In this document: positions 15,397 to 17,170 of the stretch, piece after piece
Position numbering within the stretch: the first letter of the stretch is position 1
Layout: every line of letters begins with the position of its first letter
NCBI GenBank assembly: GCA_014871385.1
Contig: CM026429.1
Coordinates: forward strand, 12,561,783-12,625,782
Reading direction: 5' to 3'
Source of the DNA: Ceratodon purpureus
Lineage: Eukaryota > Streptophyta > Bryopsida > Pseudoditrichales > Ditrichaceae
DNA length: 64,000 nt
Notes under the pieces: generated by a model
Database searches by the model: none
Seen by the model: the letters and a program-made list of their open reading frames with translations, nothing else
What the model was told of the DNA's origin: nothing
Program-made: the position numbers and the translations under genes

Positions 15397-15443
15397 GTAC
15401 ATCCTCAATGCGTTTGAAGTTCAAGGTACTTGCATTTGGAAAT
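15270..15443. repeat. Perfect 32-bp inverted repeat with 110-bp spacer
   Basis: Bases 15270-15301 (starting ATTTCCAAATGC) are the exact reverse complement of 15412-15443. One arm lies in the presumed coding exon of the small unknown gene and the other in the 3' flank of the QueC-like gene. Confidence 0.9.
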
Positions 15444-15658: not shown

Positions 15659-17170
15659 TCACTTCTCATAGAATCCAGCAGGTTCCTGCTCTGACGCTGA
15701 AGCAAAAGCCAGCTGCCTTGATCTACACTGCAATCCAAACCAGTGCATATCGATTTAGTATAGTACTTTCAGATACTTATCCCAATGATTGCAGAGAATG
15801 CAAGAATGCGGAGAGTGTTTGGATTATTCATAGGTTACAGCAAAGTAGCAGAATTATTCACTTTTATCACAAGTATCTCTGCATTTTACTGAACAGAATA
15901 AGATATTAAGCAACATATTCCAGTCATGGTTGTTAAGCAGAGAACCTGATGACAACGGCCACAGTGGACAGGTCGACCAACCATGCAGCTGTAAGTATCA
16001 CCCAAAGGCACGCCCAAGGACTTCCCCAAGCTGATCACCTCAGCCTTCGTTAAATGGCTGCAATCGCAACAAATACGCCACCGTATTAATCATTGAGGGT
16101 TACACAATCAACAAGAATTCATGCACCGCACAATACATTCATAATTGCAGAGTTAATCAAATATGCACTGAGGTCTCACAGAACATCGATCCTCGAATGG
16201 TACCTCAAAGGAGTAAGTAGCGTCACGGGCGGCTGCAACGAGGCTGCTGTAGAACGGAAACTATCTAGAAACGTTTGAGACGCACTGCATAATGACAATC
16301 ATTCAAAATTCAGGAATCCCTTGTCATTGTCCTGCAAAGAGAAAAAAACTCGATGTCGAAATAAGATGAACGAAAGGACAATCCGTTACCTTGAGTATGA
16401 GCCGAGGTCCTCTTTGTTCAGCCCAAGGGCGACCACGTTTGACCCTAACTTCAACAAAATTATGTCACACCATTTTCATGCCTTCAGAACTACAATATAG
16501 GACCCCTTGAAAAAGTGCTTCCAGATGATCCGGATTCACAAAATCTACCAGGCCTACGACGGCATTTCTCAAATCAAAATCAAAAAATTTGTTGCATTTA
16601 AAACTTCAACATGGATGTCTCGACCTGAAGTCAACTAACAGCGGCAGTGTCAAACAAGAAAATTCGCAATTGAAGAATGTAGCAAACCTGACTGGCATAG
16701 CTCGCTGCCAGCCCTAGAATCACAAGATTTCTATGTGGCAAAGGCACGAACGACTTGGCCTGTCGCTGCAATGCCCTAAATTGTTCTCCCACCTGCAATC
16801 GTCAGGCACCTTCAGAACAAGTCCCAATGTCCTTGAATTCTTTCATTACTGCAACAGATTGAAACGAGGCAGAAAGAGCACTTACCCCGGACATGTCAAT
16901 GCGGCTTAACTGCAACCCAAGTTTAGTGCAGATCTTGTCACTTGCCTGCTCCTCCATCGCTGCCCCCCTTTGCCCATAATTGATATACCTAAATTTAACG
17001 AAAACAATCGTCAAACGCGAGAATTTTCAAAAGAGCTAGGGTTTAAGGTTCACGGTGCGATTGGGAGCTCACAAAGGATGTAGAAGCGCGGAAGACGACC
17101 GCCAGTGATATAGCAACGCAGCGCTCTCAATTCCACCACTCATCAATACCACGCTGCTGGTTCCGGCCAT
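15659..17170 (-). CDS. QueC/ExsB-family 7-cyano-7-deazaguanine (preQ0) synthase-like protein, seven exons
   Basis: A complete 200-residue model results from exons 17170-17073, 16988-16886, 16792-16688, 16448-16390, 16260-16204, 16057-15946 and 15727-15659, all with GT-AG borders and matching phases. The PP-loop ATP-binding motif is SGGIES (11-16, Glu where most have Asp). The family YGQR motif is at 37-40 in YINYGQRGAAMEEQA. The QueC RN(T/L)…L…A.YA motif is RNLVILGLAASYA (88-100). LTKAEVISLGKSLGVP (143-158) is diagnostic, and the four zinc-binding cysteines SC…CGRCxxC are intact (C165, C173, C176, C179). Bacterial QueC makes preQ0 from 7-carboxy-7-deazaguanine, ammonia and ATP on the way to queuosine. 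This protein is some 20-30 residues shorter, mainly after GLNKED (111-116), so the substrate may differ. No transit peptide is evident. The introns show it is a eukaryotic gene, not contamination. Confidence 0.88.

Follow-up and report, generated by a model that had tools for sequence, protein, structure and literature searches.

The QueC family is already known to have shifted from base synthesis to protein modification. In canonical E. coli QueC, alanine mutants of Y35, R99, Y131 and Y189 are inactive (PMC13329287, available text). In Cap9, the Tyr and Asp of a YxD pair stack against the deazaguanine and recognize its Watson-Crick edge. This pair is also present in QueC; QatC carries Thr/Thr at these positions and may use another substrate (PMC13279940, available text). 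A further group of QueC-like proteins, cluster 4, has been linked to purine salvage, and the same 2026 survey reports authentic QueC as absent in Eukarya, eukaryotic QueC entries being judged transfers or contaminants (PMC13329287, in the text available). Chloropicon green algae are described as having bacterial-type TGT, QueA, QueG and YhhQ in PMC12301720, in the available main text of which the name QueC has 0 occurrences. Among the open PMC papers that our literature search listed, none deals with a moss or plant QueC. Here we describe a QueC-like gene in a 64,000-nucleotide stretch of Ceratodon purpureus DNA (the window). A spliced QueC-family gene in a plant is an exception in residence, perhaps not in activity.

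An intron-bearing QueC-like gene resident in plant nuclear DNA

The QueC-like gene is real as a sequence. It occupies window positions 15659-17170 on the minus strand (read from 17170 to 15659) and comprises seven exons with a 627-nt coding sequence ending in TGA. The predicted product has 208 residues, not the 200 given by a previous sequence-only reading, whose seven phase-consistent exons were confirmed with an open frame. All six introns (84, 93, 239, 105, 146 and 218 nt) are of the GT-AG type with phases 2, 0, 0, 2, 2 and 0, the exons join in frame, and GC content is 53% in exons versus 39% in introns. The start codon lies within GCCATGGCC, a strong start context, and an in-frame stop is located nine codons 5' of it; barring a further exon upstream, the product thus shows no transit peptide. 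Exon 1 of the spliced model (17073..17170, minus strand, as all exons) carries the start codon and the PP-loop SGGIES, exon 2 (16886..16988) the YGQR motif with the donor GTAAGT at its end, and exon 3 (16688..16792) the PHRN motif, counterpart of VPxRN. GLNKEDLGSYS is encoded by exon 4 (16390..16448) and SASQTFLDSF, the site where the Asp and Cys of YPDC are lost, by exon 5 (16204..16284). Exon 6 (15946..16057) contributes HLTKAEVISLG, the conserved Lys153 and zinc cysteines 173, 181 and 184, and exon 7 (15659..15727) the final zinc cysteine 187, the C-terminal tail and the stop. The SGG, YGQR, RN and LTKAEVISLG motifs and four zinc cysteines listed previously are all present. The segment previously described as shortened after GLNKED is placed differently: most of the missing length falls between DMSG (64-67) and PHRN (86-89), the place of the SALTD...VP loop in canonical proteins, and a smaller gap of a few residues follows later, before PPVTLLTPL.

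The product matched the Pfam QueC family PF06508 over residues 6-196 with 126.7 bits (E 1.2e-36; gathering cut-off 22), and solved QueC and Cap9 chains matched it at E 1.1e-11 to 5.8e-10. These data indicate that, by profile, it is a member of the QueC superfamily. A Pfam scan of ten ORFs in the window identified, among others, an AP2-domain protein, a P450, an EF-hand protein, a Tc1-type transposase and a copia gag, and Rfam models located a U4 snRNA gene (window:24393-24533, minus) and a U5 snRNA gene (window:57427-57539, plus) within the same 64 kb. The contig is plant nuclear DNA, and the AP2 domain, P450, copia gag and both snRNAs make contamination very unlikely. They also bear out the earlier argument, then drawn from the introns, that the gene is a resident one. 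Taken together, an origin in contamination or assembly error, or membership in a different PP-loop family, is scarcely credible: the published verdict on eukaryotic entries and weak matches to ThiI (14.9 bits), ATP_bind_3 (14.3) and NAD synthase (12.3) speak for it, but the gene has six introns among plant genes and snRNAs, no close bacterial sequence was found in the searches described below, and QueC outscores the second-best family by over 110 bits. The earlier reading had named best matches to another PP-loop family as a refutation, and this refutation fails.

The neighborhood holds further features. An intronless Baeyer-Villiger-type flavin monooxygenase with 85% GC at third positions is encoded on the minus strand at window:2743-4347 and shares 58% identity over 99% with a protein of a Streptomyces plasmid, making it a second bacterial-type gene in the window; Baeyer-Villiger-type enzymes have reportedly been found in a moss. 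Just downstream of the QueC-like gene lies a perfect 32-nt inverted repeat (window:15270-15301 and 15412-15443, 110 nt apart). An ORF with a signal-peptide-like start and no Pfam match (window:17971-19080, plus) stands head to head with the gene, about 800 bp off.

Alternative splicing models

Using a profile built without the plant QueC-like protein, we scored 730 gene models including the reference, each altering one junction, retaining an intron or skipping an exon. The reference model, with 166.2 bits, was the best at introns 1, 3, 4, 5 and 6, a GC-donor variant at intron 3 coming close (164.0 bits). At intron 2, donors 30-36 nt downstream scored 173.4-175.2 bits, yielding 218-220 residues and an intron of 57-63 nt, because the added stretch has SAL, resembling the canonical SALTD loop; the reference donor is nevertheless closer to the usual consensus than these. 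The reference intron 2 of 93 nt keeps the reading frame and contains one stop, a TGA. At intron 4, an acceptor 47 nt upstream of exon 5 has a richer pyrimidine tract (0.76 versus 0.47), and its use would truncate the protein to 128 residues. At intron 3, a TAG lies 4 nt downstream of the model's AAG acceptor, and its use would lead to truncation to 110 residues. Of the 'complete' intron-bearing gene proposed previously, the introns stand, while completeness is insecure given the better-scoring donors at intron 2 and the rival acceptors at introns 3 and 4.

The weakness of some splice sites makes a failing gene the main rival to the explanation that we prefer below. A once-working QueC-like gene would here be drifting with its frame still open, its active site changed and its splice sites eroding, a course that we regard as rather unlikely. 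The rival truncating acceptors, a SALTD loop perhaps lost to intron 2, and the replacement of Tyr189 and of two acidic residues that hardly vary among relatives fit such decay. Against it, 627 nt run without stop or frameshift through six intact GT-AG introns from a strong start context, and 21 of 26 conserved columns are retained, all four cysteines among them.

Active-site residues and departure from canonical QueC

For residue conservation we compiled a census of 290 distinct domains plus one Cap9 stretch (291 rows) from plasmids, phages, viral contigs and prokaryote genomes. Because its members were gathered by similarity to the plant protein and Cap9, the census is biased to such relatives, many of them near kin, and its counts are of sequences, not independent events. 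Domains below 165 residues were dropped in one census, and those below 160 residues or 40 bits, as well as identical ones, in the 291-row census, from which the Cap9 of L203 is absent.

The Asp of SGGxDS is found in 291 of 291 relatives and is Glu15 in the plant protein, which confirms the SGGIES substitution noted before. Two further changes had been overlooked. The Asp of YPDC, conserved in 290 relatives with the long-branch row L102 as the exception, is Ser122 within YSSA, where the Tyr is kept, and Tyr189 (272 Tyr, 7 Phe and 7 His among the 291) is Met174. By contrast with these lost residues, the plant protein keeps Tyr37 (287 of 291), Glu45 (289), Arg88 (290), Asn89 (289), Lys153 (291) and Tyr120 (260 Tyr and 21 Phe among relatives), together with the four zinc cysteines (291, 291, 291 and 290 of 291). 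Other parts of the canonical signature are altered: for YxQxHxxE the plant protein has YGQRGAAME, with Tyr, Gln and Glu, one residue longer and without the His, and for VPxRN it has LPHRN, with Pro, Arg and Asn kept and Val replaced by Leu. For the zinc motif C(x)8CxxCxxC, all four cysteines are present with a C(x)7 spacing, which also occurs in the haloarchaeal QueC P0003, a protein that passes the curated cut-off. In the 26 columns conserved to at least 93%, the plant protein keeps 21 and has lost D15, V85, P121, D122 and Y174, the majority of which belong to motifs in the published signature. Relatives keep a median of 26 (5% point 23, lowest row 14), five cluster-4 rows 22-23 and the Cap9 stretch 20. 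By this measure of aligned columns, the plant protein is as far from canonical QueC as the known repurposed groups are.

Curated profiles gave a corresponding picture. Against the QueC equivalog TIGR00364 (cut-off 150.3 bits), the plant protein scored 113.6 bits as the 208-aa model and 122.6 as the 220-aa model; four of four canonical QueC proteins passed with 174-209.5 bits, and two Cap9 proteins (92.4 and 78.8), three cluster-4 proteins (124.7, 114.4 and 108.7) and the L001 protein (143) fell below. The QatC model NF041925 gave 15.1 bits against a cut-off of 280, and with 208 versus about 400 residues the plant protein is not QatC. By the tests run, the curated cut-off and the SGGxDS, YPDC and Tyr189 positions, it does not qualify as a canonical QueC, and the former label 'preQ0 synthase' is not sustained by the equivalog score or the published catalytic signature.

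By alignment, the plant protein keeps the equivalents of E. coli Y35, R99 and Y131 and loses the pocket Asp and Y189. It is therefore likely that the protein still binds ATP and zinc, and likely that it has lost deazaguanine recognition of the canonical type. With two active-site residues changed that are almost universal among relatives, it has probably ceased to make QueC's queuosine precursor. It might instead be a working preQ0 synthase that tolerates these changes within a de novo 7-deazaguanine route of the plant. The zinc site, Arg88, Tyr37, Tyr120 and Lys153 are kept, and three of the residues essential in E. coli QueC are Y35, R99 and Y131 (PMC13329287, available text). Yet Tyr189, likewise essential in that text, is Met here, the Asp residues of YPDC and SGGxDS are lost, even the 220-aa model stays below the curated cut-off, and queries for QueD, QueE, FolE and QueF returned no match in the 64-kb window at E 0.1. 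We consider such an enzyme quite improbable.

Relatives, phylogeny and origin

Genome look-ups with the plant protein (n = 1,103, some genomes counted twice) returned matches in 14 of 14 chosen genomes. At E 1e-3 matches were found in 50 of 246 look-ups in Actinomycetota, 232 of 244 in Cyanobacteria and 224 of 299 in Pseudomonadota, and at E 1e-18 in 17 of 99 in Planctomycetota, 11 of 101 in Chloroflexota and 31 of 100 in the archaeal phylum of G012. The best genome match among those listed was a Kutzneria protein (G001, L090; 104.2 bits, 38% identity), and no close prokaryotic donor was found in the 1,103 look-ups, near full-length identity being at most 40% among the matches listed. Top identities, again among the matches listed, were 34.4% in plasmids, 31.7% in phages and 35% in viral contigs. 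Peptide patterns from the plant protein alone retrieved 8 viral-contig stretches, 0 of them confirmed, and scans with alignment A2 yielded 248 relatives in 315 stretches of viral contigs (80 kept) and 82 relatives in 221 stretches of genome contigs (80 kept), none close. A two-row Cap9 alignment had matches in 43 of 244 genomes of Cyanobacteria and in 1 of 349 of Pseudomonadota; the single pseudomonadotal match is a known cluster-4 gene, and the 43 cyanobacterial ones look canonical by frame length. Further scanning of viral contigs with Cap9 gave 210 relatives, of which 80 were kept and added to the census. In phages, no CBASS gene was found by name among the matches listed (10 of 169 records).

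Trees were built from 104 representatives picked at 62% identity and hold two Cap9 sequences only. The second alignment was made without L102, L006, L007, L008, L060b2 and half of the canonical rows; L183, L173, L180 and L205 were dropped later (99/95 tree), as were L191, L060, L116, L036 and L022 (93/94, 99/90 and 86/81 trees). The plant protein fell on the Cap9/cluster-4 side in all six trees, with supports of 95/94 (with L102), 89/94, 99/95, 93/94, 99/90 (without Cap9) and 86/81 (without cluster 4). Only the 99/95 and 99/90 values, besides the 95/94 tree, are above the program's good-support mark, and the program warns that long branches meet here. A position inside cluster 4, obtained in the first tree (98/86), was lost with other alignment and sampling. 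Placement with cyanobacteria was disfavoured (p-AU 0.0027, and 0.074 with another row set), which disfavours a plastid origin; placement with L012/L074 was disfavoured (0.008), that with alphaproteobacteria weakly so (0.045), and placement with the Streptomyces/Kutzneria pair L001/L090 was not rejected (0.48). In the light of six introns and no close relative among the sequences searched, an old transfer is plausible, as had been proposed.

The tree position raises the question of an immunity-lineage enzyme, of the Cap9 or cluster-4 kind, that would modify a protein N-terminus in the plant. Besides the grouping in six trees, the plant protein shares with Cap9 and cluster 4 the YxQ(x)5E spacing and TYSC followed by a non-Tyr residue, and its loop is shortened as in Cap9. 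The same spacing, however, occurs in canonical haloarchaeal QueC, a canonical-like C-terminal tail is kept that Cap9 and most cluster-4 rows lack, and the pocket Asp is retained by both groups. Of the two Cap9 rows one is partial, placement with the Cap9 pair alone is not demonstrated and, at a p-AU of 0.28, not rejected, and TIR, TGT and OGG partners were not found within the 64-kb window. A direct member of that lineage is in our judgement highly improbable. A land plant that kept and rebuilt an immunity-side QueC (Cap9/cluster 4) for a new substrate, possibly for amide formation at a protein N-terminus, is decidedly unlikely; to our knowledge, no such chemistry is known in a eukaryote.

The searches also brought to light a repeated cluster-4 operon encoding a TGT-like protein, an Ogg-HhH glycosylase, a QueC-like protein and a TIR-type protein (L323:1667-7490, L325:1667-7484, L002:2649-7060, L324:1698-6062, L227:532-3770, L226 and L326). 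The TGT-like protein carries a TIR domain in L323, and the TGT-like piece of L326 is below the Pfam cut-off; the Pfam scan of these loci covered L323 and portions of L326. In seven of seven loci (L002, L226, L227, L323, L324, L325 and L326) the TIR-type protein begins with MGGGGGG, MGGGSSG or MGGGGGGYTGG, start codons in three unannotated loci being chosen by hand; the operon has a parallel in type IV CBASS, with MGGSGGG opening the L203 cyclase. A caspase-like ORF lies near the operon in L326. We matched these loci ourselves, through a PfkB neighbor, to cluster 4 of PMC13329287 (available text), and the predicted layout points away from purine salvage and towards a possible TIR-based deazaguanylation defence system. 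On the Streptomyces plasmid, L001:3041-7718 encodes QueE, QueD and FolE, holds two annotated oxygenase- or hydroxylase-type genes, and is perhaps a deazaguanine natural-product cluster; its QueC-like protein falls short of the QueC cut-off and has APDSN instead of YPDC.

Discussion

Judged from its sequence, the gene is real and unexpected in a plant; it belongs to a known family, its pocket is changed, and its function is putative. What we tentatively favour, at a shade under even chances, is a gene that resides in the plant nuclear genome, is spliced and encodes a divergent QueC-superfamily enzyme with a changed substrate; it would have been acquired long ago from a source not of the cyanobacterial type. 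The full-length QueC match, the plant context, the six introns, the 21 of 26 columns kept and the non-canonical side in six of six trees count for this explanation. Counted against it are the Asp to Glu and Asp to Ser changes at near-invariant positions, which may mean a dead enzyme, the two acceptors with better-looking, truncating rivals, the long branches that meet in the trees, the p-AU of 0.48 for kinship with L001/L090 and the lack of a pathway partner in the 64-kb window. The protein may share the general mechanism of QueC, ATP-driven amide formation: it would still bind ATP, activate a carboxylate and transfer it to an amine. 7-Carboxy-7-deazaguanine would no longer be handled in the canonical way, and the new substrate could be another small carboxylate, or the reaction could be protein amide formation as in the immunity relatives. 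The changed substrate suggested by the sequence-only reading gains support as a possibility. If the protein works, its SGGIES/YSSA pocket would represent a natural substrate switch, and the gene allows a direct test of whether the plant uses QueC-type chemistry, and on what.

Comparison with known systems

With canonical QueC (7-cyano-7-deazaguanine synthase, TIGR00364; B. subtilis 3BL5, E. coli 2PG3) the plant protein shows whole-length homology, sharing the PP-loop SGG, YGQR, RN, the Tyr of YPDC, the conserved Lys, the four zinc cysteines and a canonical-like tail; it differs in having Glu, Ser and Met at the positions of the PP-loop Asp, the pocket Asp and Tyr189, respectively, and a shorter loop before PHRN. 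QatC of qatABCD likewise has a QueC core with the pocket Asp replaced (Thr in QatC; PMC13279940, available text), but is about 400 residues long with required extensions. The L001/L090 QueC-like protein (Streptomyces, Kutzneria) shows the highest identity to the plant protein in the trees (36%) and shares its FLDSF and VVSLG..LGVP..DT stretches, whereas it keeps both Asp residues, has APDSN for YPDC and is 234 residues long.

Cluster-4 proteins of the TIR/OGG operons (L002, L226, L227, L323-L326) resemble the plant protein in TYSC with a non-Tyr residue and are adjacent in the trees. Unlike the plant protein, they have FPDQ, keep the pocket and PP-loop Asp and carry His after YSC (TYSCH, VYSCH in L326), where the plant protein has Met after TYSC; tblastn with the TIR-TGT, OGG and TIR proteins of L323 gave no match within the window at E 0.1. 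Cap9 of type IV CBASS (9NTO; L203), also adjacent in the trees, shares YxQ(x)5E, RN, TYSC and the short loop, and its Y/FxQ(x)5E and RN motifs are found in the plant protein as YGQRGAAME and RN. In contrast, Cap9 has LxSGGxDS and H(x)4YxDC where the plant protein has LMSGGIES and SYSSA without the Asp or Cys, and CE(x)6CxxCxxCxD where it has CMVGRPVHCGRCHQCRS. Moreover, Cap9 keeps YxDC and a Glu after TYSC, is without the tail, and is encoded by a gene that adjoins a CD-NTase.
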